In this document: in pieces, positions 9,578 through 31,037 of the stretch | Layout of the letters: every line of letters starts with the position of its first letter | How positions within the stretch are numbered: position 1 is the stretch's first letter | Origin: a virus | Length of the DNA stretch: 36,063 nucleotides | Virus record (IMG/VR): IMGVR_UViG_3300003873_000032 | Coordinates: 1 to 36,063 of that record | Direction: 5' to 3' (one strand) | Program-made: the position numbers and the translations under genes | Notes under the pieces: generated by a model | What the model saw: only the letters and a program-made list of their open reading frames with translations | What the model was told of the DNA's origin: nothing | Database searches by the model: none

Positions 9578-9751
9578 TTAGGCTTTGTCAGCAGCTACTA
9601 ATGCAGCTCTTGTTGGAGTAACAAGCTTCTTGATTTCACCAAGTGATTTACGGATACGACCTGAAGTTGCTTTAGTTTGCTTTTGCTCGTAGCTATTGAT
9701 TTCAGCTAGTGCTGTTTCTAAGTGTTGTTTAATTGTGTTTAATTCTTGCAT
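9578..9751 (-). CDS. histone H1-like small basic protein (57 aa)
   Basis: The product MQELNTIKQHLETALAEI..., 57 aa, has a helical first half. Its second half, TSGRIRKSLGEIKKLVTPTR, follows the R-x-R-K-x-x-x-E-I-K-K-L-x-x-x-x-R pattern of bacterial histone H1-like (Hc1-type) proteins, also seen in phages. The expected role is DNA or RNA binding and compaction. The SD AAAGGAACACA is strong. It follows immediately after the structured noncoding block and its terminal stem, so the RNA block and this gene may share a transcript or be separated by that stem. Confidence 0.55.
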   Translation of the reverse strand: MQELNTIKQHLETALAEINSYEQKQTKATSGRIRKSLGEIKKLVTPTRAALVAADKA

Positions 9752-10221
9752 TGTGTTCCTTTTAATTAAAAGCTCAACGTAGCCAGACGGTATAATACCT
9801 ACTGGAAGAGGTTGAGCGTTGGTGCTATACTAGACTAAAAACTAGTACTGGTTTATGGTTGTTGCCTAATCACCATAGTAGTATCAGTAGCTATGACTGA
9901 ATCCTCCATAAGAGAGCTGCTATGATGCCTAAGGTACACGTCCTGAACGAACTCCAATAGTCTTTAATACCTAACCCCTGTCCCACTGGAGGTTAGATTT
10001 TGATAAGGGACTGCCATAATATAACGGATTGATACTACTCATTACTGACGCATTAGTCCTCGTCTATGGTTGCTCTACAATGGGCATTTGATTTTTAAAC
10101 CCTCTACTGGGGTAGCACATTACTGTGTTCAAATGGAGTCCACTACATCGGTGCAAACCTGCCCGCTGTGACACTTAGTAGTATATTACCTCAGAGTTTT
10201 TAGACTTCAGTGGACTGGTCT
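9752..10221 (-). ncRNA. 470-nt gene-free block with strong RNA structure (candidate noncoding RNA R1)
   Basis: No open frame with an SD is seen here, but several helices fit one minus-strand RNA. 10138-10144 pairs with 10209-10215. A three-way junction is closed by 10085-10091/10129-10135 and holds a hairpin at 10099-10113 and one at 10116-10127 with a GUAA (GNRA) loop. 9971-9978/9989-9996 is an 8-bp stem that needs a G-U pair only on the minus strand. A long terminal stem closes 9772-9817. No group I intron core or tRNA is seen. The class is unknown. Confidence 0.55.
9768..9817 (-). terminator. terminal stem-loop with short U-run, end of candidate RNA R1
   Basis: GCTCAAC (9817-9811) pairs with GTTGAGC (9778-9772), with an inner CCAG/CTGG and GGTA/TACC stem stacked inside. 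TTTT then follows, and AATTAAA. This is an intrinsic-terminator-like layout, though the U-run is short and the stem is interrupted. It could equally be the 3' structural domain of the RNA. Confidence 0.4.
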
Positions 10222-10305
10222 TTAGCCTCTAATTTGAGGAAGGGTGAAGATGCCTGCTAGGGTTAGTACTATGTAGATAGTTACACCTATTAAGATGTCT
10301 AGCAT
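10222..10305 (-). CDS. putative 27-aa single-span membrane peptide
   Basis: A 27-codon frame starting at ATG 10305 overlaps the stop of the DUF2158-like gene as TAATG, a junction used repeatedly in this genome. The peptide MLDILIGVTIYIVLTLAGIF... is almost wholly hydrophobic until a short TLPQIRG tail, as expected for one membrane span. The SD is weak (GAAG), so expression would depend on coupling. It could be chance, but the exact junction and the clean hydrophobicity favour a gene. Confidence 0.4.
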   Translation of the reverse strand: MLDILIGVTIYIVLTLAGIFTLPQIRG

Positions 10306-14799: not shown

Positions 14800-14902
14800 G
14801 TAAGTCCTTGTAGTTTCTTCTACCATCATCTGCAAAGATGCTGTGTAGTATGTGCATAATTTTATTGTCAAGCCATTGTAATGCTAGTCGTATGTCTATC
14901 AT
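14786..14902 (-). CDS. putative small protein (38 aa) between the resolvase fusion and the exonuclease
   Basis: ATG 14902 overlaps the stop of the HNH-RusA gene as ATGA and has a strong SD (AAGGAAGACAC). The 38-codon frame MIDIRLALQWLDNKIM... ends 14 nt inside the exonuclease gene. It exactly occupies what would otherwise be a 100-nt gap. It is amphipathic, with no known family. Confidence 0.5.
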   Translation of the reverse strand: MIDIRLALQWLDNKIMHILHSIFADDGRRNYKDLHDKL

Positions 14903-16044
14903 GTGTCTTCCTTCCATTTTCTTATATAGACCTCTACACGAGGGTTTTCTTTATCCTGCTCACCTACGTAAAAGGCTTCTTTCATACAGAACTTCACGTT
15001 ATCCTCGGATACAAGGTTAGCTTGCTGTGCAGCATCTAGAAATGCTTTACTTACAAGTGAACATACATTTGATAAATCACTTTGAGAGTTCTTGTAGTAG
15101 TAAACATAAGCTGTCTCATATTTACCTGTTATTTTTGGTAAGTTAGCTTTTGTTATTGTTGATACAAAAGCATCATTGTAGAATTGTTTTATATCATTAC
15201 GTAAGTGATAATGTGCTGTATTCCACTTATTCATTGATAGTAGAAATGTTTTATTAGGCTTAGTTTTGAATACTTGAGTGTAGTATACACCTATACTCTG
15301 AGAGTAGTAAGTGTCATCTTTAGGAGGTTTATTAACCTTTTTACCATGGTTAGCATGGAAGTTAAATTCCCTATTCCATTTTACTCTTTGACGTATAGCT
15401 CCAAACTTTGTAGTAAATGACTTACTCAGTGCTTTACCCCTTGTGTGAATTTGTGCAACCCATTTATTAGTTGCCTTTTTAAATGACACACCGGTTATAC
15501 CACTAGTATTCCTTGAGGATCTGGACATATTTTGGTGGTTTATAAAACCATCTACATCACGTAAATTATGCCAGGCATTATTTAACCCATTATGATCTAT
15601 ATGATCAATTTCTGTTGGCCAGTTACCTGTCATGTAGAGATACGCTAATCTATGTAAAAGATACTCTTTATTATTAATACCTGTCTTCAGATACTCACCC
15701 TTTTTAGTCTTTACTCCTACGGTTTCACCAATAGTATGACGTAAAGATAACTTAGCTAATCGTGTAAATACACCTGTATCCTTATCATAGTGAAGAATAT
15801 CTTTTAGTATTTTTTGAGTTAGTTCTCCTTTAAATGTATAAAGGTCTTGTGAGCATTTAGATGAGCAACACTTCTGTCTACCTCTTTTTACATTATTTAC
15901 AGTAGCTTTAAACCCTTTATGGCATGTTGGGCATTCAAACATTGCATAGTGTGCACGTTTCTTGCTTGATGCTTTTGGGTACTCCATGCCTAAGTCCCTA
16001 AGTACTTTTAAAGGCGTATCATTTAGTTGCTTTGTGTTACTCAT
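14899..16044 (-). CDS. HNH-AP2 endonuclease fused to a RusA-like Holliday junction resolvase
   Basis: A 381-aa chimera. Residues 30-65 are zinc-ribbon-like (FECPTCHKGF, then CCSSKC). Residues 125-170 form an HNH_3 domain (LLHRLAYLYMTG, EIDHIDHNGLNNAWHNLR). Residues 180-235 form an AP2 DNA-binding domain (SGITGVSFKKATNKWVAQI ... FHANHG). From about 255 to the end it is RusA-like: a strand and basic helix, then QSDLSNVCSLVSKAFLDAA and VSEDNVKF with the acidic residues of the RusA site, and ENPRVEVYI. RusA cuts four-way junctions. The start overlaps the upstream stop as ATGA, so both parts are read as one frame. Confidence 0.75.
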   Translation of the reverse strand: MSNTKQLNDTPLKVLRDLGMEYPKASSKKRAHYAMFECPTCHKGFKATVNNVKRGRQKCCSSKCSQDLYTFKGELTQKILKDILHYDKDTGVFTRLAKLSLRHTIGETVGVKTKKGEYLKTGINNKEYLLHRLAYLYMTGNWPTEIDHIDHNGLNNAWHNLRDVDGFINHQNMSRSSRNTSGITGVSFKKATNKWVAQIHTRGKALSKSFTTKFGAIRQRVKWNREFNFHANHGKKVNKPPKDDTYYSQSIGVYYTQVFKTKPNKTFLLSMNKWNTAHYHLRNDIKQFYNDAFVSTITKANLPKITGKYETAYVYYYKNSQSDLSNVCSLVSKAFLDAAQQANLVSEDNVKFCMKEAFYVGEQDKENPRVEVYIRKWKEDT

Positions 16045-21369: not shown

Positions 21370-22038
21370 TTAGGGGTGTTTGCTAATTACAGTCTGCAAT
21401 GATTTAGCCATATCTTCTAAGAGTTTAGTAGATTTAGTATAATCTTTATTAACATTTGATGATAATCTAGAATAAGCTATGTTTAAAAGCTTTTCAAGCA
21501 CTGTAAATTGCTTGTTATTATACACTTCGCGTTTTAGAGTTTCAAGCTCCATGATAAGTCCTACATTCTGTCCATTAGTCATTTCACTTAGTACATGGCT
21601 ATATGGAGTTGAACTTACAGGTTTTAAGTTAATTGAAAAATGTGGTATATGTGTACCAATGATATCAATAAAATGTCTGTAGTCAGATGGCTGATAATGT
21701 AAAGTTTCAACTACTGTATCATACTCAAATACTGTTAGCATCTCATCATAAGTGGACTCATGGCAATCAATAAAGTACTCTGCAAACTTACCATGTAAAC
21801 CAACTAATTTGTTTTCTAAGAATTGTGGTAATCCTTTAGACCCAGAGTACATTTTAAAGCCCAAAGCTAGGCAACGATAAATGTTAGCATTTGTATTCAA
21901 GTTTTGTTTTGTAATCTTAAAATTCCAGAAATATTCAGGAGCATTCTCAGCATGCTCACGTATAAATGCCTCTATTGCTTTTTGAGTAGTCATCTTAGAG
22001 AGCTTATCTATTTGTAGTTTATATTGAAAGTTATCCAT
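21370..22038 (-). CDS. M-D-x-F paralog, long form (222 aa)
   Basis: It begins MDNFQYKLQIDKLSKM and is the clearest full-length relative of the 214-aa protein at 24.2-24.8 kb. Shared blocks include STYDEMLTVFEYD with GTYEQFVAAFEGE, HIPHFSI with ILPFSFD, and ELETLKREV...TVLEKLLNIAYSRL with ELEHLKATV...TLLENMLSDAYKQV. It is mostly helical, with no known family. It lies between the polymerase and exonuclease genes. The SD AAAGGATAATA is strong. Function is unknown. Confidence 0.7.
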   Translation of the reverse strand: MDNFQYKLQIDKLSKMTTQKAIEAFIREHAENAPEYFWNFKITKQNLNTNANIYRCLALGFKMYSGSKGLPQFLENKLVGLHGKFAEYFIDCHESTYDEMLTVFEYDTVVETLHYQPSDYRHFIDIIGTHIPHFSINLKPVSSTPYSHVLSEMTNGQNVGLIMELETLKREVYNNKQFTVLEKLLNIAYSRLSSNVNKDYTKSTKLLEDMAKSLQTVISKHP

Positions 22039-22432
22039 TATTATCCTTTATGGTTTTAACCACTTTAGCTATTGCTTCAGCTATGTATGGGTGTACATTA
22101 CGTACTGCTACTAGCCTTGCTAAAGCAATCTCTTGAGATTTAGTTAGTGGAGTTATAGGTGTTGATACCATAGGTTCAATACCTAGAGATAGAAAAAATG
22201 AAGCATAGTTACTAAGCATCATAGGTAATTGCATTTTGCTACCTAGATAGTTAATAAGTGATAACATTTCTTTCATACCATCAGTAGTTTTAACATACTT
22301 AGCATTAAAAGTCCAGTTACTATATATCTCCCTGCAATCAATATACAATTTAGCAGCAGCTTCTTTGTAACCCTTCTTAGTTGTTATAGCCTCTAGCTCA
22401 GCTAGGCGTAGTGTGTAATCAAAGTGGTTCAT
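22031..22432 (-). CDS. M-D-x-F paralog, intermediate form (133 aa)
   Basis: MNHFDYTLRLAELEAITTKKG opens the protein. The following half aligns by eye with the N-terminal half of the 222-aa paralog (YSNWTFNAKYVKTTDGM against YFWNFKITKQNLNTNAN; LGSKMQLPMMLSN against SGSKGLPQFLENK). It looks like a C-terminally shortened copy. It overlaps the next paralog by 8 nt; the SD is AAGGACAAC. Unknown function. Confidence 0.65.
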   Translation of the reverse strand: MNHFDYTLRLAELEAITTKKGYKEAAAKLYIDCREIYSNWTFNAKYVKTTDGMKEMLSLINYLGSKMQLPMMLSNYASFFLSLGIEPMVSTPITPLTKSQEIALARLVAVRNVHPYIAEAIAKVVKTIKDNNG

Positions 22433-22547
22433 TAGTTGTCCTTAATGTAGGTAGCTTGTGTAACATGAGTTGTTTTGTTGTAGTAATTTCTCTAGTACGG
22501 AGTATAACACTATGACGTAGTATAATATGCATTTTATTATTAGACAT
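22419..22547 (-). CDS. putative basic small protein (42 aa)
   Basis: ATG 22547 overlaps the polymerase stop as TAATG. The frame MSNNKMHIILRHSVILRTRE... runs 42 codons and ends inside the next gene. It is basic (several Arg, Lys, His) with no family. The same bases also hold the SD of the downstream paralog, so part of the sequence is constrained for that reason. Support is the junction only. Confidence 0.35.
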   Translation of the reverse strand: MSNNKMHIILRHSVILRTREITTTKQLMLHKLPTLRTTNEPL

Positions 22548-23932
22548 TAGTGAGTTTCTGACCAATTGTTACCAATCAAATAATCTGCTTGTATTGATAA
22601 AGCCATATTAAATTGTTGTTGTATCATGTTGCACCCTCGTACCATTATATCACCAAGTTTCTCAGCATAATCTGTATCACACTGACATTGGAATTCATCA
22701 TGGACAAAAGCCATTTGTGACCATTTCTCACCATGAGGTAACCCTTCTTGAGATGCTAGTGTATGAAAGTTTAACATCCATTTTTTAGCTATTATACCTG
22801 CAGATCCTTGTAAAAGTAAGTTAAGTGCACTATGTGGTGACCGTGAATTAAGTTTACGACCATCAATTGCTGTAACAAATCCAGTATCTTTTGATTCTTT
22901 TTGACAGGCTTTAATAAGTTCTTTAATACCTACAACTTTCTCTAAGAAAGTATCTGATATACGCTTACCATAAATTGTTTGACGTATTAGTATTTCATCA
23001 TATAATACATAGGTATCTGGTTTTAATGGGAAATATTGCTTATCATCCATTATAATAATACGTCCCTCTACTCTCTTCTTAGCTTGTTTATATTCTTTGT
23101 CAGTGTAGTCATCTAGACATGTATCAGTCCAGAGTGTGTTACCACGTACAGTATCACCACTACCATACATCCAGGAAAAAAAGAAAGCTTTACTAGCACT
23201 TCTAGCAGCTTTCATTTCAGGAGTCCTGTCAGAGGCATGATTATCATCTGGCCAATCACGATCGTCTTTAGTCCAGAAACCTGCTAGCTTTGCATGATAC
23301 CAATGCATGTCTTTAGAAAGTACAGCCTTAGCATATAACCCATCATCATACTTTGATAGATAATGTGCAAGTGTACGAACCTCAATGTTTGCAAGGTCAG
23401 CACCAACTACAGCTCTACCAGGAGGTGCATTAAATAGTTTTCTAAACTCTTTAGCAGTTGGTACTTGTGCAAGATTTGGCTTTGAATGGGTTGCCCTATG
23501 GGTGTTAGCACCAATTAGGTCCACTTTATGGTGGATTGAGTGAGTATTCTCATTGTAGTTTTTTAAATAACCACCTTTTGTGTCATAACCTACAGTTCCC
23601 TGGTCCTTATATACACGAAGATACCTATGCAGTAGTTTACCAGCAGGATTGGTCATACCTGTTAATGAATCTGGGTCAACCTTTATACCACCATTTTTGG
23701 TGTAGAAAGGAAAAGTATAGCCATAATCTTCCTCCATCCATTTAATGATATGTTGTCGTGAACCAGGGTTAAAAGGTACATACTTGATTGGCTGATGTTG
23801 ACCACTACGAGTTACAATGATTGTCCTCATGGGTGAGGAGAACCATTTGATGGACCTCTTACCTGGGGGCTTGTAGCTGCCATTTTTGAGGTAGCGACCG
23901 TAGGGTATCTTGTAAGGTGTTAGGTTGTTCAT
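22547..23932 (-). CDS. family A DNA polymerase, T7-type polymerase domain without exonuclease
   Basis: 461 aa. YVPFNPGSRQHI, THRATHSKPNLAQVP, motif A AVVGADLANIEVRTLAHY (D179), fingers KAFFFSWMYGSGD (motif B region), IDGRKLNSRSPHSALNLLLQ and motif C FVHDEFQCQ follow T7 gp5 closely through to the GNNWSETH C-terminus. Motif A has Leu-Ala in place of the usual Ser/Tyr-Ser. The first 50 residues are basic and do not contain an exonuclease or an obvious full thumb. The SD GGAGG is excellent. It replicates phage DNA, probably with the separate exonuclease. Confidence 0.88.
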   Translation of the reverse strand: MNNLTPYKIPYGRYLKNGSYKPPGKRSIKWFSSPMRTIIVTRSGQHQPIKYVPFNPGSRQHIIKWMEEDYGYTFPFYTKNGGIKVDPDSLTGMTNPAGKLLHRYLRVYKDQGTVGYDTKGGYLKNYNENTHSIHHKVDLIGANTHRATHSKPNLAQVPTAKEFRKLFNAPPGRAVVGADLANIEVRTLAHYLSKYDDGLYAKAVLSKDMHWYHAKLAGFWTKDDRDWPDDNHASDRTPEMKAARSASKAFFFSWMYGSGDTVRGNTLWTDTCLDDYTDKEYKQAKKRVEGRIIIMDDKQYFPLKPDTYVLYDEILIRQTIYGKRISDTFLEKVVGIKELIKACQKESKDTGFVTAIDGRKLNSRSPHSALNLLLQGSAGIIAKKWMLNFHTLASQEGLPHGEKWSQMAFVHDEFQCQCDTDYAEKLGDIMVRGCNMIQQQFNMALSIQADYLIGNNWSETH

Positions 23933-23935
23933 TAA

Positions 23936-24163
23936 TTACCTCCAAGTAGAGTTATGAAAAGATTTGTATTTAGCTATTATTATTGCACGGATATAATCAG
24001 CATGTATTGAAGGATCCTTTAAGCTAAATAGGTAGTCATACATAAGCTTGTTTAGTAGCTTATGATTAGTATTATAATGGTCTCTTAGGAACTTAACACG
24101 TTGCTTATCCATAGTTAGCCCTTGCCATAGGCCAAGTGCTATCTTATACTTAAACTCATCCAT
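23936..24163 (-). CDS. M-D-x-F paralog, short form (75 aa)
   Basis: MDEFKYKIALGLWQGLTMDKQRVKFL opens a 75-aa helical protein rich in Lys, Tyr and aromatic residues (DYIRAIIIAKYKSFHN). Only the first 15-20 residues clearly match the other paralogs; the rest is diverged. It overlaps the upstream 214-aa paralog by 8 nt and ends four bases before the polymerase start. Unknown function. Confidence 0.6.
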   Translation of the reverse strand: MDEFKYKIALGLWQGLTMDKQRVKFLRDHYNTNHKLLNKLMYDYLFSLKDPSIHADYIRAIIIAKYKSFHNSTWR

Positions 24164-24800
24164 TTAGCTTACCTATAACCGTTGCTAGTGCTGATTGCTT
24201 TTCTGCAAGAGATTGGGTAAACTTTTGCAGTGTTTGAGAATCGAAGGAAGGAACTTGCTTATAAGCATCACTTAGCATATTCTCTAGTAATGTGTACACC
24301 CCACCTTTGAAGACCGTAGCTTTTAAATGCTCTAGCTCTAGTACCTTCTCTACTGCTGAGTTTTGTGTAACATTACACAACAACCCTGAAAAGCTACTAG
24401 AACTATTAATATAGTAGTCAAAGCTAAAAGGAAGTATGTTACCACCTATTAGTTTTATCATTGGTATGGAACTACGTGCATCTGAGCCTAATAGCCTAAC
24501 AGTCTTTTCACCTTCGAAGGCTGCCACGAATTGCTCATAGGTACCCTCACCATTATGAAAGTGTGTTTTTAGTGTATGCTGTAGTCGTCCAGATATAACA
24601 CGTACCAGCTTAGACAGCTTTCGCTTACCATCATACTTGGTTGTTATAATTTTAAGTGCATTATACATACGTATCTTGTCATCAATAGAAAGCTCATCGT
24701 ATTTAATTGAGGCTACTTGCTCTGCTAAGTTGTAGACTTCTACCTTTGTAGTAGCTGCTTTTAGTTGTTGCATGATGAGGGTGTATTTGAAATGGTCCAT
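24156..24800 (-). CDS. M-D-x-F paralog, long form (214 aa)
   Basis: MDHFKYTLIMQQLKAATTKVEVY opens a mainly helical protein that is homologous over its length to the 222-aa paralog. The conserved centre GTYEQFVAAFEGEKTVRLLG, with IGGNILPFSFDYY and LELEHLKATVFKGG, suggests one folded domain of about 130 residues after an N-terminal helical anchor. It follows the metallopeptidase/VWA gene directly (SD AGGAGCTATTT). No enzymatic motif is seen. Confidence 0.7.
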   Translation of the reverse strand: MDHFKYTLIMQQLKAATTKVEVYNLAEQVASIKYDELSIDDKIRMYNALKIITTKYDGKRKLSKLVRVISGRLQHTLKTHFHNGEGTYEQFVAAFEGEKTVRLLGSDARSSIPMIKLIGGNILPFSFDYYINSSSSFSGLLCNVTQNSAVEKVLELEHLKATVFKGGVYTLLENMLSDAYKQVPSFDSQTLQKFTQSLAEKQSALATVIGKLNG

Positions 24801-24809
24801 AAATAGCTC

Positions 24810-26291
24810 CTATACCATAAGGATATTTGTACCTGGTACGCTAACAGGGTTATTAGCGCCAGCACATATCCAGTAGTTAGTAAGCTTCCTCATTGTAGGG
24901 AAGTTTCTGAACTCACTATCAATATCTGAATAGTTATCACTGAATGACATGTAGATAACCATACCTGGGTCTGGTAGCTTCATATCTTCGATGTGTTCAA
25001 ATACACAACGGTGACTTGTACCACCTGATGTGTAGCGAGTAGCTAAGGCTTTAGAGAACTCTGGTGATGCTGCAATATCATAATCATCTTCTATGTTGAA
25101 CTCTTGGATAACTCTAGTGTCGTGTATGAGTACCTTTAGAGAGGCTATATGGATTGATTCAGATTCAATGAGGTAAAGTAGCTTTTGCAAGTCTTCTGTG
25201 TTCATAGAGCCACTATGGTCCACTGAGAGTATGATGTTGATCTTATTATCAATGAATTGCTTCTTAGGGGATTTATAGATACGACGGTATGTGTTGTTGA
25301 GGTTAGCCCAGCTTGTTGAATAGTCGTGAGTCTTGTAATAGACTTGACGTTTGAAGCTAGCCTTGATCTTTTTGAACCAACCAGTTTCTACTTTTATAGA
25401 GCTAAATAGTTGCTCGAAAAGTTCACCAGCTTGTGAACCTTTAGTGTTGCTTGAGATGATATCCTGGAGAGACTCTGAGAGGTCAGCCATTGAGATGTCA
25501 GCATCATCAGAGTCTGTTGAACATTTATCAGGTTTGCCACCCTGGGCTTTAACTTTACCACCTTTACCTTTATCGTCTTCTTCACCACCAGGGCCACCAT
25601 TAGACTTAGTGGGTTGATTCATAGTTTTACCATCACACGTGATAGCTGACATCATGTCAGATATCTGTTGTTTGGTGATATGGTTTTCTTCTTTGATTAA
25701 TAACTTTAAGATATCAATGTCTGATAGCTTCTCTTGGTGGTACTGTTTGTTGTACATACCTATATCTTCAATCTCTTGCCATTTAGGCTTTAGAGTTGAA
25801 GATAACATGAAGAGATCTTTTAAGCTATAGTTGATAGCATGATCTTCGGCAATGTTGATTATTTCATTAGGAAATGCTACATCACCTGCTATATTTTCCA
25901 TCATGGTGTTATAAGACTTGGTGACGTGTTTACGTAGTATATGCTGCACTTCATGCATATACACAAATGCTAGGAATACAGAGTGACGTGGTAAGTGATT
26001 AAGGATAGCTTTAAGGTCTTTTTCTTCATGATACATGAAAGTAAAGAAGACCTTAGTAGTATCACCGTGTTTAACGTATGCAGAGAAGTAAGGCATAAAG
26101 GTTTTTAACTCTTTATACATCTTAGGAAGTGGTTGATGAGTCTTCTCAATGGCTACCTCAATTGGTAACTTGAGAAACAGTCCAGTGCTTAATGCAGCTG
26201 TTTTGTTTTTACCTAAAAGGAGATTGGCATTTTTAGCAACTTCCTTGTAGATAAAGTCTTCCGCTTCTTTAATAAAGTCTTCTGGGTTCAT
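24810..26291 (-). CDS. VWA-domain protein with zinc-metallopeptidase-like N-terminus (DUF2201-like), partner of MoxR ATPase
   Basis: 493 aa. The N-terminal domain has H113-E-V-Q-H117 (HExxH) and a later NIAEDHAIN (about 146-154) that could give the third ligand, as in DUF2201 putative metallopeptidases. A Gly/Lys/Asp-rich linker (about 228-262) leads to a VWA domain with MIDAS motif D358-H-S360-G-S362 and later TSGGTSHR and FSDNYSD. Bacterial MoxR AAA+ ATPases act with such VWA proteins to remodel or insert metal into clients. The MoxR gene lies 1.5 kb upstream with small paralogs between. The SD is AAGGAACCCCA. Confidence 0.75.
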   Translation of the reverse strand: MNPEDFIKEAEDFIYKEVAKNANLLLGKNKTAALSTGLFLKLPIEVAIEKTHQPLPKMYKELKTFMPYFSAYVKHGDTTKVFFTFMYHEEKDLKAILNHLPRHSVFLAFVYMHEVQHILRKHVTKSYNTMMENIAGDVAFPNEIINIAEDHAINYSLKDLFMLSSTLKPKWQEIEDIGMYNKQYHQEKLSDIDILKLLIKEENHITKQQISDMMSAITCDGKTMNQPTKSNGGPGGEEDDKGKGGKVKAQGGKPDKCSTDSDDADISMADLSESLQDIISSNTKGSQAGELFEQLFSSIKVETGWFKKIKASFKRQVYYKTHDYSTSWANLNNTYRRIYKSPKKQFIDNKINIILSVDHSGSMNTEDLQKLLYLIESESIHIASLKVLIHDTRVIQEFNIEDDYDIAASPEFSKALATRYTSGGTSHRCVFEHIEDMKLPDPGMVIYMSFSDNYSDIDSEFRNFPTMRKLTNYWICAGANNPVSVPGTNILMV

Positions 26292-26533
26292 TGGGGTTCC
26301 TTATAGTTGTGTTCCCATCTGTGAGTATCTTTTAATTCTATTGCTCTAGATGTAACAGGTAGTTCATCAGCTTTATTAGCCACTAGCTGTTTTAAATGCA
26401 GATATTCATCTAGTGATATTGAAGATTTTGGTATTGTAAGTATAAATCTACAATAATTTTCAAGTGTCTCTATATTTATGAGTAAAGTACTCTTTAAAGC
26501 TTTAATCATAATTGTAAATTTGAATTCATCCAT
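26288..26533 (-). CDS. M-D-x-F paralog, short form (81 aa)
   Basis: The start is ATG 26533 (MDEFKFTIMIKALKSTL), behind AAGGGCATTT; a longer frame to 26557 would add eight residues and hide the signature. The remainder is helical (LENYCRFILTIPKSS, LDEYLHLKQLVANKADELP). It overlaps the VWA gene start by 4 nt (ATGA). The family link rests on the N-terminal signature. Confidence 0.6.
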   Translation of the reverse strand: MDEFKFTIMIKALKSTLLINIETLENYCRFILTIPKSSISLDEYLHLKQLVANKADELPVTSRAIELKDTHRWEHNYKEPQ

Positions 26534-26541
26534 AAATGCCC

Positions 26542-26746
26542 TTATATGTATTGCCATAGCTTTGCTGAAAGTGCTACTATGTGTTTAGCCTTGCTTAGTG
26601 AGTAAGTTGTTGAATGTAGCTGAGTCATTAGTTGAGTAGCTTGAACTGGTAATAGATCGCTAGTAGTTTCCTCAAGGAGGGGACATAGTGCCTTCTGGGT
26701 CAGATTTTAATGTATTGTAGAGGATTTGGTATTTGAAGTTGTCCAT
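26542..26746 (-). pseudogene. M-D-x-F paralog broken by a +1 frameshift
   Basis: ATG 26746, behind AAGGACTAGCA, begins MDNFKYQILYNTLKSDPEG, the family signature, but meets TGA after 24 codons. If one base is skipped in the CCCC tract near 26679-26682, the frame continues for 46 codons (LLEETTSDLLPVQATQL...) to TAA at 26542, only eight bases before the next paralog. Options are a single-base insertion, a sequencing error in a homopolymer, or programmed +1 frameshifting at UCC-CCU. The downstream half remains free of stops, which favours a recent or programmed event. Confidence 0.55.
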
Positions 26747-26748
26747 TG

Positions 26749-26988
26749 CTAGTCCTTAGAGATATCTATGAGTAGTTGTGCGTAGCGTGTGTAGGTAGCT
26801 ATAATATTACCATGAGACATATGGGGGTGTAATTTTTCTATAAACTGCTTGTCTATAGATAGATCACTATTCCTATCATTTATGGTAGTATTCAGCCTAA
26901 CGCTACAAAACTTGATGGTGGTATCTAATTGTATAAGCTCATTGGAAGCTATTAGGTAGTACGTGAGTTTAGTTTGAAAGTCATCTAC
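26749..26988 (-). pseudogene. M-D-x-F paralog with GTA in place of the start codon
   Basis: A 79-codon open frame reads (V)DDFQTKLTYYLIASNEL..., the family signature with GTA exactly where ATG should be. Upstream is AAGGACACTA, with normal SD spacing. No other ATG or GTG exists before the body of the frame; the first internal Met is near residue 57. It fits exactly between the neighbours, ending 3 nt before the next start. Either a point mutation killed initiation, or a non-standard start is used, or the base is a sequence error. Confidence 0.5.
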
Positions 26989-27214
26989 TAGTGTCCTTAG
27001 TTAACATATAATGCTGAAAACGATTCATTGCATCAGTACGTGTAAAACCACTTTTAGCTATCTTAAAGAACAGTGATTTGGATAGCATAGCAAAGTCATC
27101 CACAAAAGGTTGTGTCATTAGTTCTTTGCTATAGATATCACACATCTCCCTGGTTATAGGTGTAGACATATCACGTAGAGATTCAACCGTGATAGTATAT
27201 TGAAAATCATCCAT
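26981..27214 (-). CDS. M-D-x-F paralog, short form (77 aa)
   Basis: MDDFQYTITVESLRDMSTP opens a 77-aa helical protein (REMCDIYSKELMTQP, MLSKSLFFKIAKSGF). Its start overlaps the upstream stop as TAATG. Its C-terminal codons overlap the start region of the GTA-initiated paralog by 8 nt. Unknown function. Confidence 0.6.
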   Translation of the reverse strand: MDDFQYTITVESLRDMSTPITREMCDIYSKELMTQPFVDDFAMLSKSLFFKIAKSGFTRTDAMNRFQHYMLTKDTSR

Positions 27215-27453
27215 TAACGACCTCCTGATCCGGTTTTATAGTAAGGTAAGAGATCTCTAGCTGCAATTAGTAGCTCTTGGTTATCTCTTACTACTTGGTG
27301 CTGTACTAATCCTTTAAACATAGCTACACGTTTAGGGAATGGTAGTTGAAGCATTTCACGAGTATTGATGTAGTCAAATAACTCCTCTGATGAGAAGTCG
27401 TGTTGACCTGATGCAATAGTCTCTGATAGCACCTTTAGCTTGAAGTCATCCAT
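27214..27453 (-). CDS. M-D-x-F paralog, short form (79 aa)
   Basis: MDDFKLKVLSETIASGQHDFSSEELFD opens the protein, followed by a helix-rich body (FPKRVAMFKGLVQHQVV, ELLIAARDLLPYY) and a GSGGR tail. The SD is AAGGATTCCC; it overlaps the upstream paralog by 8 nt. It shares the signature and the acidic S-x-x-E-L segment with the 107-aa paralog (ITSDELDTL). Confidence 0.6.
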   Translation of the reverse strand: MDDFKLKVLSETIASGQHDFSSEELFDYINTREMLQLPFPKRVAMFKGLVQHQVVRDNQELLIAARDLLPYYKTGSGGR

Positions 27454-27769
27454 GGGAATCCTTAAAAGGTATTAGACCTTCTGTACTATATTTATTTATT
27501 TTTAAATGCTTACTTACTAATATTGCTTTAAAAGTAGACTGAGGTATTGACCATGTAGTATCACCCAATTTATCTATATGTGTATTAAGCATTTTGCGTA
27601 TACGAGCCCCTCTACCATTTAATAGGTGTGGCATTGAATATTCGTAGTTGGTGAGGTACCTTCTACGTACATTAATCATAGGAAGTACTAGTGTATCAAG
27701 CTCATCAGATGTGATAGAAGTGCTACCCATTAGGCGCTGCTCTAATAGCTTAAGCTTAAAGCCATCCAT
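27446..27769 (-). CDS. M-D-x-F paralog, medium form (107 aa), first of the array
   Basis: MDGFKLKLLEQRLMGSTSITSDELD begins two bases after the MoxR stop, so translation is probably coupled to the ATPase gene (no strong SD). The rest is basic (INVRRRYLTNYEY, GRGARIRKMLN, SKHLKINKY). It is the first M-D-x-F copy in transcription order and the one tied most closely to MoxR. Confidence 0.6.
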   Translation of the reverse strand: MDGFKLKLLEQRLMGSTSITSDELDTLVLPMINVRRRYLTNYEYSMPHLLNGRGARIRKMLNTHIDKLGDTTWSIPQSTFKAILVSKHLKINKYSTEGLIPFKDSHG

Positions 27770-27771
27770 GA

Positions 27772-28773
27772 CTAGTGAATAAACTCACAAGAGATAGCAT
27801 ACAGCTTATCGTGTTCAGCAAATGTTAGCTTGTTGTACTTCTTAAGTTGACTCTCTGTAAGAGGCTTATTGTACTTAGTAGCATCATAGCTAGATTTTAG
27901 TAGCTTATCTAAGATAACACGTAAGCCATCAGTGATGTGCTTACCTTCTTCAGCAGTTAAGTACTTAGTATATAACTCACCAGCAATGAATCCTATGAAG
28001 TTAGAAGACTCCATGTTAGTATCTATAAGGTCCATAACATAAGCCGCATCATCTATAGTCTCAACATAGTTGATGATATAGGCATATAGGATTTGATCAA
28101 TAGCTTTGAGGGCCTTAATGTCAATTGGGGCTTTAGCTTTGATCTTAGCTGTGAAGTCAATAGCCTCTATATATGCAATGTGTTTAGATAACTCATTAGC
28201 AGCAGCTTTTGATACCTTTTGTTTAGCAAGGTATGTTGTGTTATCTTGTAAGAACTGACGGTCGTATAGCTCGAACTCATTAGCTAGGTGTGTCCAACTA
28301 CGTGGAGTACCAAATTGCTCAATCATAGTAGATTCATCTTCTTGAGTATACTTTGAGTGAGAGCGTAGAAATGATGAGATGTAGAAGTGAAGCTTCTTAC
28401 CGAAGTTCTCAAACCAGTACTCAAAATCGAAAGGTACTGGCAGGATACCTAGGCGGTCTTTAATTGGTGAATCAATACCACTGAAGCCAGCTTCATCGGA
28501 GTCGTTCATTGCACCCATTATTGCTACTTTTTGGTCAAGTTTAAATGAACCAAGTTTACGCTCACCTAGTAGGCCGTAGAGGTATGGTGCTACAGCCATG
28601 TTAACACGGTGTAGGTCATCTATGAATAGGATACAACCAGATTTGCCTTCCTTTGTTGCAAGGCGGTTAGCTGTTTCAATGATTTGTGGTACTGACCACT
28701 TAGTTGCCATTGATTCTACAGAGCCAGTTACTGAGTAGCTGTCCATATGGGATGCTTCAATGAAGTCAGGGAT
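27772..28773 (-). CDS. MoxR-type AAA+ ATPase, exon 2 (Walker B to C-terminus)
   Basis: The second exon starts ATC-CCT-GAC (IPDFIEASHMDSYSVTG) and supplies 333 residues. It carries Walker B CILFIDDLHRVN, sensor 1 AIMGAMNDSDEAGFSG with an aspartate-rich loop, an arginine-finger-like SPIKDRLG, and the helical lid to the end. Joined to exon 1 it gives a protein of about 399 aa, typical of MoxR/CobS-like ATPases. On its own the exon also has an ATG at 28746, which would give a product without Walker A, so that frame is not the gene. The paralog array and the VWA partner follow. Confidence 0.8.
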   Translation of the reverse strand: MPDFIEASHMDSYSVTGSVESMATKWSVPQIIETANRLATKEGKSGCILFIDDLHRVNMAVAPYLYGLLGERKLGSFKLDQKVAIMGAMNDSDEAGFSGIDSPIKDRLGILPVPFDFEYWFENFGKKLHFYISSFLRSHSKYTQEDESTMIEQFGTPRSWTHLANEFELYDRQFLQDNTTYLAKQKVSKAAANELSKHIAYIEAIDFTAKIKAKAPIDIKALKAIDQILYAYIINYVETIDDAAYVMDLIDTNMESSNFIGFIAGELYTKYLTAEEGKHITDGLRVILDKLLKSSYDATKYNKPLTESQLKKYNKLTFAEHDKLYAISCEFIH

Positions 28774-29863
28774 CGTTTATATTCAGCAGTAGTCGTTAAT
28801 TACTGCCCGCACCATTATGTGCAGCTACGTGTCTCCACGTAGACTAGACTATATCTTAATCTTTATTTATTTAACTTTCTAGAACAAGGTAGGCAATACT
28901 GAATTGCCCCTTCTAGAGATCTTCTCATAGTTTGTGACCAAGGACTACTAATCTCTTGTAAACAATTATTACATGTGTACACACCAAACCACTTATACTT
29001 AGGTTCACCACCTATAGTAAGTAATTTATATTGCACACCAATTATTGTTCGTCCACCAATGTCTTCACCAATATGAGTCATGAGTTGTTCAAAAGTATTA
29101 GTTTGAGTAGTTTTCTTACTAGCCTTTATACTTTTAGCTCTGACATTCAGATCTTGATTATCTGCTGAATGTTGCATATTTTCTTGGTGTGTTACCCATT
29201 CAAGATTCTCAACAGTATTATTAGTACCATCTTTATCTTTATGGTTGACAAAAGGTTTATTATCAGGATTAGGCAAAAAAGCTTCAGCAACTAGTCTGTG
29301 CATATGTACAGTATAATTAGTACCATCATTAGATAATGAGGCCTTTATGTATGTTGTATGCATTTGCTTATGGTAGCTGCCTGAGCGTATTTTAGTACCA
29401 CTTTTTGTTGTCACACGTAGATTACCCTTGTTTGACACCTCGTAACGAGGTCCATACTTAGGGTCTACAGGTTTGAAAATTTCTTCATTTTTCATTATAC
29501 TTCCTTAAATTAGATAAGTAAGTATACCAAAAAATCTCTTAAAGTTATATAAAGATTTCCCCCATTTCCACTCCACTAGAAGTGTACGAGCATGATGCTC
29601 TAGTCGTTGAACCTTCTCCTGGTTACGGAGCTTGGCTGCTGATTGCCTCTATTACCTACTTTTCAAACCGTCAACATCTGCTTTCGCGATGCTTGTGGTG
29701 TAGATACTTAACAAGGGTTCCCAGCAATTAAAGGGATGCAAAACACACATCACTGTGTGTAAGGGCTGTAACATTACCACACTACAGCCTAATACTTTCA
29801 CTACTATCATTTGTTTATTCTCATCATAGTGTTGGTACTAGGTGTAAATGTGGTATGTTGTTA
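28774..29863 (-). mobile_element. group I intron (about 1,090 nt) inside the MoxR ATPase gene
   Basis: Exon 1 ends in U (GTGGT) and the intron ends in G (AAACG), the group I rule; removal restores ...ENLSG-IPDF... in frame. ACCAC at 29854-29850 can pair with the exon end as P1. Core signatures on the minus strand are AATTGCTGGGAACCC (about 29729-29715), GGCAATCAGCAGCCAAGC (29647-29630), GAAGGTTCAACGACTA (P7 5' side, about 29616-29601) and AAGATATAGTC (P7 3' side, near 28857-28847). A 7-bp P9-like hairpin with GAGA loop is at 28825-28842. An HNH gene lies in the P8 region. Exact boundaries are inferred. Confidence 0.8.
28863..29495 (-). CDS. intron-encoded HNH homing endonuclease (NUMOD4-HNH type)
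   Basis: 210 aa. The N-terminus (EIFKPVDPKYGPRYEVSNKG) is NUMOD4-like. The HNH_3 core follows: VHMHRLVAEAFLPNP, PFVNHKDKDGTNNTVENLEWVT, with the H, N and H/N residues. The C-terminus holds a zinc ribbon (YTCNNCLQE ... QYCLPCSRKLNK). It is encoded inside a group I intron and probably cuts intronless MoxR genes to spread the intron. The SD AAGGAAGTATA is strong, so it is translated from the precursor or excised intron. Confidence 0.82.
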   Translation of the reverse strand: MKNEEIFKPVDPKYGPRYEVSNKGNLRVTTKSGTKIRSGSYHKQMHTTYIKASLSNDGTNYTVHMHRLVAEAFLPNPDNKPFVNHKDKDGTNNTVENLEWVTHQENMQHSADNQDLNVRAKSIKASKKTTQTNTFEQLMTHIGEDIGGRTIIGVQYKLLTIGGEPKYKWFGVYTCNNCLQEISSPWSQTMRRSLEGAIQYCLPCSRKLNK

Positions 29864-30061
29864 ACCACTTAGGTTTTCCGTACTTACCTCCGGAATAGAA
29901 ACTTGAACAACGTTCATGTTTAACTCTTCAGCTATAGCGTACATTGATTGAGTTTTTCCAATTCCTGGTTGTCCAGCTATGCATATACCACCACCTATAT
30001 CAGCTCCTGAGAGTTGGCCTTGTATGTTAGTCTTCAGAATTGTTGTTATTGTATTGTTCAT
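29864..30061 (-). CDS. MoxR-type AAA+ ATPase, exon 1 (Walker A)
   Basis: Starts at ATG 30061 behind AAAGGAAAACC. The 66 residues include Walker A CIAGQPGIGKTQS and the strand VVQVSIPEVSTENLSG, which in MoxR proteins continues G-x-P. The frame meets a stop one codon later in intron sequence, so without splicing only a short useless product is made. It overlaps the end of the upstream 336-aa gene by 35 nt. MoxR ATPases are ring-forming chaperones that act with VWA proteins such as the one at 24.8-26.3 kb. Confidence 0.8.
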
Positions 30062-31037
30062 GGTTTTCCTTTAAGATGTTGTGGACGTCAAGTATTGACG
30101 AAGTTGTTTTTAGTGCTATTGTAATATCTACAGGTGTTAGCTGTTTAGCTAATTTCTTAGCTAGTAATGTGTAAGCTGGTGTTGATGTTAATCTAGCAGC
30201 ATTAGTTAACTCTGAGATTGCTGCTAACATACGCTCAGCTAGGCGAGTATCAACATTGGTGTAGATAGCATGAGTACATATTGGTGTGTCAGTTGAGTAT
30301 GCCATCAAAGAAGCCATGCTATTTATTGTTACTAAAGTTGATAGCTTTATACATATTGCTTCATCCTCATCAGGTATATATAAATCACCATCAGTTGTGT
30401 ACAAATATGTTGGTAATAAATTTTGCAACATTGCCTTAGTGTGAACATCCGTGTTGTTTAGTACTATAGCATAAAACTTATTACGTATTTTAACTATGTC
30501 TGCACTTTGGTCGTTACTATTGTCAAAAGCTTCATTGATTTTAATAATATAGTTTTTAGCCTCGGTACGTAAGAAGCGTTTAGTGATACTATTTTTAAAT
30601 ATTGATAATGAAAACATATCCATATTGAAAGTCAACTCAGTACCCTTAGTAGACCTACGAGAGGGATTAGCCTTACGCCATTGGTTACGATTGTAAGTAG
30701 ATGCAAACTTAAGCTGATCAGCTGTTACACCCGCTACCTGTAATGTATTGTAATAGCTTCTAAATGGTGTTGCAGCTTGCTCAATAGCCTGTTTAATAGG
30801 GCCTTTAATACCGTATGTACTAATCTGATAGCCACCTTTAAAACATTGTATTTGAAGAGCAGTGCACTGATTAGGTGTAAGATTCTGAACTACATTTGAA
30901 GGTATTGTTGATAGGTACACCTTTAATTCATAGTTATCTAAATTAAGCCTGTTGATCTCATCAATTATGGCTACGTAGGTTGTGTAATCTTCTTTTTCAA
31001 TCTCTGTGAAGAGGTCTGCTAAACTATCTATAGCCAT
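30027..31037 (-). CDS. unknown 336-aa protein upstream of the MoxR gene
   Basis: MAIDSLADLFTEIEKEDYTT... is a mostly helical soluble protein. Basic stretch RNQWRKANPSRRSTKG (about 116-131) could contact nucleic acid; TDGDLYIPDEDEAICIK forms an acidic strand region; the C-terminus is Asn-rich (HEQYNNNNSED). No family is recognised. The SD is AAAGGACTAAC. It overlaps the MoxR start by 35 nt, so it may be an accessory component of the MoxR/VWA system, by location only. Confidence 0.6.
   Translation of the reverse strand: MAIDSLADLFTEIEKEDYTTYVAIIDEINRLNLDNYELKVYLSTIPSNVVQNLTPNQCTALQIQCFKGGYQISTYGIKGPIKQAIEQAATPFRSYYNTLQVAGVTADQLKFASTYNRNQWRKANPSRRSTKGTELTFNMDMFSLSIFKNSITKRFLRTEAKNYIIKINEAFDNSNDQSADIVKIRNKFYAIVLNNTDVHTKAMLQNLLPTYLYTTDGDLYIPDEDEAICIKLSTLVTINSMASLMAYSTDTPICTHAIYTNVDTRLAERMLAAISELTNAARLTSTPAYTLLAKKLAKQLTPVDITIALKTTSSILDVHNILKENHEQYNNNNSED

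Follow-up and report, generated by a model that had tools for sequence, protein, structure and literature searches.

Two of the 14 published core genes of phage N4, gp24 ("unknown") and gp25 ("vWFA domain") (PMC4193335), are likewise core genes of N4-like phages (PMC7650795). In CbbQO, a cellular pair of a MoxR AAA+ ATPase and a VWA partner, the metal ion-dependent adhesion site (MIDAS) of the VWA protein CbbO is the target-binding site; it binds an acidic residue of the target, which is then remodeled by the activase (PMC4660213). For group 2.2 jumbo phages, MoxR and a metallopeptidase-VWA protein have been proposed to aid virion assembly, by analogy with the MoxR-vWA pair of the archaeal virus ATV (PMC7824862). 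Here we analyzed the complete 36-kb IMG/VR virus record IMGVR_UViG_3300003873_000032 (36,063 nucleotides, referred to below as the window), in which a MoxR AAA+ ATPase and a metallopeptidase-VWA protein are encoded together with an array of genes whose products begin with the motif M-D-x-F. With moderate confidence we read this locus as the gp24/gp25 module of N4, present here in a divergent phage related to it, with an intron-split MoxR gene, clade-specific helical paralogs and a mechanism that is inferred.

By sequence comparison, the MoxR and VWA proteins are the gp24/gp25 pair of phage N4. An earlier note on this DNA, made from its letters alone, had recognized a pair of a MoxR AAA+ ATPase and a metallopeptidase/VWA protein, and profile matches bear this out (PHROG 1297, 3e-36, for the spliced MoxR; PHROG 1314, 5e-25, for the VWA protein with its HEVQH and DHSGS motifs). 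A tblastn search with MoxR retrieved 297 phage records, all distant and prominently from N4-like phages, including the LIT1 protein labeled "N4 gp24-like". When the VWA protein was aligned with LIT1 gp25 by hhalign (probability 83%), the HExxH, the following NIA(E/G)DHxIN and the MIDAS fell into register. Its Pfam matches to DUF2201_N/DUF2201 stayed below the gathering score, and no match was obtained by tblastn in phages or by sequence search of the PDB, nor did its profile find a relative in bacterial and archaeal genomes. The clade sample consisted of six genomes, the window and five relatives (G001 to G005), among which MoxR and VWA are about 60-75% identical; HExxH is invariant and DxSGS present in the VWA proteins of all six. 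The distant gp25 of Vibrio phage pVco-5 carries HITWH instead of HExxH, the glutamate being lost, and given this sequence peptidase activity of the VWA protein is not to be assumed. Four gp25 homologs (L038 5314-6543, L039 5549-6775, L042 4486-5661 and L045 5047-6204) are publicly labeled "HNH endonuclease", which matches the label of PHROG 1314 and looks like a propagated misnaming. The pair comprises the following features of the window:

29864-30061, minus strand: MoxR exon 1, 66 amino acids (aa), with Walker A GQPGIGKT, ending ...LSG; from alignment with the intronless L004 MoxR
28774-29863, minus strand: group I intron, ending ...ATATAAACG; both halves match Rfam RF00028
28863-29495, minus strand: intron-encoded NUMOD4/HNH endonuclease, 210 aa; Pfam HNH_3 2e-10 and NUMOD4 3e-5, PHROG 59 E 2e-37
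27772-28773, minus strand: MoxR exon 2 (IPDFIEASHMD...), with Walker B FIDDLH; from homolog alignment and the AAA match of the spliced protein
24810-26291, minus strand: DUF2201-type metallopeptidase (HEVQH) and VWA (MIDAS DHSGS) protein, N4 gp25-like, 493 aa; PHROG 1314

We place the window in a divergent N4-related clade with larger genomes, akin to Schitoviridae. Comparison with the relatives shows the window to be part of a larger phage genome, a fragment without genes for virion RNA polymerase, portal and major head protein, and these were scored in relative G001. The affiliation follows from the N4-type virion RNA polymerase (5e-99), portal (1e-160), major head protein (6e-74) and large terminase encoded there, and from the top matches of the G001 portal, which were N4-like phages at 35-38% identity. 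A nucleotide search of phages with the window itself gave no match.

While the earlier note had rightly called MoxR an AAA+ ATPase, it lacked the split of the gene, which is not a single open reading frame (ORF) but is interrupted by a group I intron that encodes an HNH endonuclease. The reading frame of exon 1 closes at an in-frame TAA that is the first codon of the intron. The 5' core of the intron (29457-29795) scored 50.2 bits against RF00028 and the 3' part (AAGATATAGTC...P9, ending at 28825) 30.9 bits in a permissive search; the conserved AAGATATAGTC strand lies downstream of the endonuclease ORF. As it has a catalytic core (P3-P8) and its exon junction is clean, the intron is predicted to be self-splicing. 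Joining GGT|ATC yields a MoxR protein of 399 aa that matches PF07728 (AAA_5, 1e-9). The MoxR genes of G003 and G005 are uninterrupted, and the G003 protein aligns with the spliced window protein gaplessly at the junction (LSG-IPEF vs LSG-IPDF), while G001, G002 and G004 carry introns at the insertion site of the window, which is therefore common to four genomes. The possibility that the split MoxR represents two genes or a pseudogene was ruled out by the clean junction relative to the intronless homolog. In Walker B (window 28609-28630) the catalytic glutamate is replaced by aspartate in all six clade members (IDD or LDD), whereas the motif reads DE in the other phage MoxR proteins compared (LIT1, APEC7, JA-1 and pVco-5).

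Like the window, the Vibrio phages JA-1 and pVco-5 have a MoxR gene (gp24) interrupted by group I introns with homing-type ORFs, but at different sites: both phages after SVQAAA, and JA-1 also within the Walker A loop, as opposed to LSG|IP in the window. The endonuclease-type ORF after SVQAAA lies behind Walker B, and the group I signatures at this site were weak in Rfam for pVco-5 and under the listing threshold for JA-1, with a AATGGAAGTTGATATAGTC-type 3' strand recognizable by eye. The second JA-1 intron, inside the Walker A loop, reached a clear Rfam score of 52.2 bits. The intron regions span L038 2380-5257 (JA-1) and L039 3492-5496 (pVco-5), and the annotated pieces of the JA-1 ATPase correspond to exons. 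From these sequences, group I introns would occupy three sites in one phage gene, each adjoining conserved residues, which we count among the new parts of this analysis. Repeated intron insertion of this kind leads automatic annotation to split and misname the phage MoxR gene.

On the minus strand, which carries all genes of the locus, the order is a 336-aa ORF, MoxR, six M-D-x-F frames, the metallopeptidase-VWA gene, two M-D-x-F genes, the DNA polymerase gene, two further M-D-x-F genes and a polymerase-exonuclease subunit gene. Much of this had been described in the earlier note: the 336-aa protein before MoxR and the four M-D-x-F genes after the VWA gene, interleaved with the DNA polymerase, were found as described there, these four genes all being intact, while the array of six between the two partners is present with only four intact genes, one frame lacking a usual start and another being frameshifted. 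The individual features are:

30027-31037, minus strand: 336-aa protein; about residues 139-175 are probably an internal M-D-x-F-like helical hairpin (ORF; hhalign)
27446-27769, minus strand: M-D-x-F protein, 107 aa, intact (found by hidden Markov model, HMM)
27214-27453, minus strand: M-D-x-F protein, 79 aa, intact (HMM)
26981-27214, minus strand: M-D-x-F protein, 77 aa, intact, a short member (HMM)
26749-26988, minus strand: M-D-x-F-like frame VDDFQTKLTYYL..., reading GTA-GAT-GAC-TTT, without ATG/GTG/TTG start
26542-26746, minus strand: M-D-x-F gene MDNFKYQILYNTL..., frameshifted after 24 codons at CCT-CCT-TGA (reading frame)
26288-26533, minus strand: M-D-x-F protein, 81 aa, intact (HMM)
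24156-24800, minus strand: long M-D-x-F protein, 214 aa, intact; each of the six genomes has an ortholog between VWA and DNA polymerase
23936-24163, minus strand: M-D-x-F protein, 75 aa, intact (HMM)
22547-23932, minus strand: family A DNA polymerase (PF00476 1e-28, PHROG 15971 1e-66)
22031-22432, minus strand: M-D-x-F protein, 133 aa, intact (HMM)
21370-22038, minus strand: second long M-D-x-F protein, 222 aa, intact (HMM)

Sequence profiles indicate that the M-D-x-F proteins are a genuine, clade-specific paralog family, which is new here. A family HMM trained on the five relatives only, with the window ORFs set aside as members beforehand, recovered all eight intact members from the window, with no other hit at E<=2. 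A first-pass pattern at protein starts was far commoner in the locus than elsewhere in the six genomes. The consensus reads M-[DNT]-x-F-[KQE]-Y-x-[ILV]-...-[IL]-...-T-[TSP], and the N-terminal helix-turn-helix signature common to the family is [DNT]-x-F-x-Y-x-I...I...T-[TSP]. Members of about 230 aa form an orthologous group that every one of the six genomes carries between VWA and polymerase, and one short member recurs in four (the 77-aa member of the window has relatives in G002 and G004, plus G005 via G002), while most others are too diverged for pairing by BLAST. Three members lie kilobases from the MoxR-VWA pair (G002 2131-2496, G004 69658-70014 and G005 55566-55916); in the one from G002 the motif is shifted by four extra N-terminal residues. 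Beyond the clade, ten control phage loci gave no convincing hit to the family HMM (the best, at E 0.43, lay away from a protein start). A tblastn search of phages with the long protein gave no match, and searches of IMG/VR with the alignment and a single protein returned only the known relatives; these sequence searches reach close relatives best. Pfam reported nothing significant for the long proteins.

The 336-aa protein, which has orthologs in all six genomes, probably contains an internal copy of the M-D-x-F unit, also new here. Comparison by hhalign gave a probability of 75% with the ungapped M-D-x-F profile and 34% with the gapped one, with control profiles below 4%. When the whole long family was compared with the whole 336-aa family, the probability was 0.3%, though the motif position picked was identical, and because this comparison was unsupportive the internal copy stays probable on sequence grounds. 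The AlphaFold model of the 336-aa protein is poor (predicted local distance difference test, pLDDT, 55).

For the 214-aa member, AlphaFold returned a confident model with pLDDT 86 and a predicted template modeling score (pTM) of 0.78, in which the N-terminal half is helical (helices 3-15 and 19-30), with TPR-like neighbors of uncertain meaning. Residue 2 (D/N/T) and residues 17-18 (T/S/P at 18) lie at helix starts. Since such residues at N-cap positions explain the motif without a docking tag, position 2 in this model reads best as a helix N-cap and the motif as the mark of a helical-hairpin fold, not a recognition tag. For the M-D-x-F unit, the copy inside the 336-aa protein and the four-residue shift in G002 speak for a fold and against a signal tied to the protein start. 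We also rejected the idea that the motif is a repeat in the DNA or a signal for translation: the codons vary synonymously (GAT/GAC, TTT/TTC), the motif is also internal in the 336-aa family and shifted in G002, and direct repeats are short and weak. Foldseek and BFVD gave no significant fold relative (Foldseek E above 0.2), and the best hit in structure comparison (ComR, Z 8.8 over 75 residues, root-mean-square deviation 2.4) is inside the range of unrelated helical bundles.

The relationship between pair and family is asymmetric: the family depends on the locus, and outside the clade the pair is independent of the family. In each of the six genomes, the M-D-x-F genes cluster at the MoxR-VWA locus. 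Seven N4-like loci with both partners (LIT1, JA-1, pVco-5, PhAPEC7, ort11, phiCB2047-B and Axy12) have no, one or two unrelated genes between them and no detected M-D-x-F gene, from which it follows that the pair does not need the family. The proposal in the earlier note of one multi-component machine is thus unsupported as stated. That note had regarded frequent occurrence of the M-D-x-F genes without the pair, and of the pair without them, as speaking against its proposal; of these, the pair without the family was found at the seven loci, whereas the family was not found outside the clade. As the six genomes represent one clade, the co-localization can be simple inheritance of gene order.

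In the mechanism we propose, MoxR, once self-spliced, would form an ATP-driven ring. The VWA protein would dock on this ring and, in the manner of CbbO with CbbQ, use the metal site of its MIDAS to capture a target, which the ring would then remodel; this target is probably a complex, of phage or host origin, for transcription, replication or virion assembly. By analogy, the phage pair may act as CbbQO does. The M-D-x-F proteins would serve as compact helical modules for interaction, growing in number and diverging through duplication and loss; one short member and one of about 230 aa, both recurrent across genomes, may belong to the module, while the others look like lineage-specific accessories. 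Several points weigh against this joint reading. Two of the ten M-D-x-F genes of the window are broken as assembled (two of the six in the MoxR-VWA interval, none of the four after VWA), which argues against each being essential. The fold matches of the modeled protein are within noise for helical bundles, and none of the papers found demonstrates a target for any N4-like gp24/gp25. In addition, with aspartate at the Walker B glutamate position of the clade (DD instead of DE), ATP hydrolysis and full ATPase activity cannot be taken for granted from the sequence. The joint reading mostly concerns identity and anatomy and overlaps with the first two of the alternatives below.

A tenable alternative, to which we give somewhat less than even weight, regards the M-D-x-F genes as independent early accessory or anti-host genes at a tolerant insertion point, linked to the pair by position only. 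Member numbers and sequences vary strongly while MoxR and VWA stay conserved, other N4-like phages also carry unrelated small genes at that point, and the window holds the broken copies; on the other hand, the members are nearly all at one locus per genome, unlike the usual scattered accessory genes, and one long member is identically placed throughout the clade. The suggestion of the earlier note that the MoxR-VWA ATPase uses M-D-x-F proteins as adaptors or substrates, which we extend to a separate target for each protein, is doubtful in our view. Concentration at the locus, the tight overlap or abutment of the genes, which are probably co-transcribed, the probable motif copy in the 336-aa neighbor and the predicted helical, interaction-type fold are in keeping with it, but against it stand the seven N4-like loci lacking the family, some members that flank the DNA polymerase or sit kilobases upstream, the two broken members, and D/N/T at position 2, which is unsuited to a MIDAS ligand that should be acidic. 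A more specific version, in which these proteins and the internal copy of the 336-aa protein are diversified adaptors or clients derived from a single helical docking domain, appears quite unlikely; if true, a single phage MoxR-VWA motor would act on many targets. We also consider a chaperone role in virion assembly, the proposal made for jumbo phages and ATV, unlikely for the pair: the jumbo phages have the same architecture (PMC7824862), but here and in N4-like phages the pair is located amid replication and nucleotide-metabolism genes, not structural ones. That the VWA protein is an active protease cleaving M-D-x-F precursors is very improbable despite the invariant HExxH and the small, fast-diverging neighbors reminiscent of metallopeptidase/small-peptide systems (PMC7159879), as the conserved part of these proteins is the N-terminal fold, no common C-terminal cleavage motif was seen, and the HITWH of pVco-5 gp25 shows that catalysis is not general.

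Further observations concern other parts of these genomes. The DNA polymerase gene, intact in the window, is split in two relatives (L003 7883-10661 and L005 12711-14909), in L003 with a second group I intron at 9641-9937 and in L005 with an intervening ORF. At 14899-16044 of the window, an HNH-type sequence apparently forms an in-frame fusion with a protein that relatives encode separately (L004 15751-16191). About 600 bases without substantial ORF lie within 9600-10300, where they separate the ribonucleotide reductase gene from the genes next to it; a structured RNA is possible, and this region had no Rfam match at gathering score.

Among known systems, CbbQ-CbbO, NorQ-NorD and RavA-ViaA resemble the window in combining a MoxR AAA+ protein with a VWA partner but are cellular, and targets have been identified for some of them; no homology is recognized for the part of CbbO that precedes its VWA domain (PMC4660213), whereas in the window an HExxH metallopeptidase-type domain occupies this place. 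In MoxR-vWA ternary conflict systems effectors are fused to the vWA C-terminus, while in the window the VWA domain reaches nearly to the C-terminus of its 493-aa protein, which has no further Pfam domain and hence no such fused effector; VMAP, iSTAND and FtsH had no Pfam match among the neighbors scanned, for which no specific models were run. The jumbo phage pair shares the two-protein architecture including the N-terminal metallopeptidase domain but stands outside an N4 context, and the available part of its description mentions no M-D-x-F array (PMC7824862). The closest likeness is to N4 gp24/gp25. There, too, a MoxR-type AAA+ gene lies upstream of one for a DUF2201-type HExxH and VWA/MIDAS protein; the phages concerned have a giant virion RNA polymerase, and the two genes belong to their replication region. 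The clade differs from these phages in its MoxR (only about 23-27% identical, with Walker B DD vs DE and a different intron site), in the relatives' sequence lengths of about 90-118 kb vs about 70-78 kb for N4-like genomes, and in the M-D-x-F paralogs between and around the pair. For gp24/gp25, core genes of N4-like phages, a clade with an embedded paralog family offers candidate partners.

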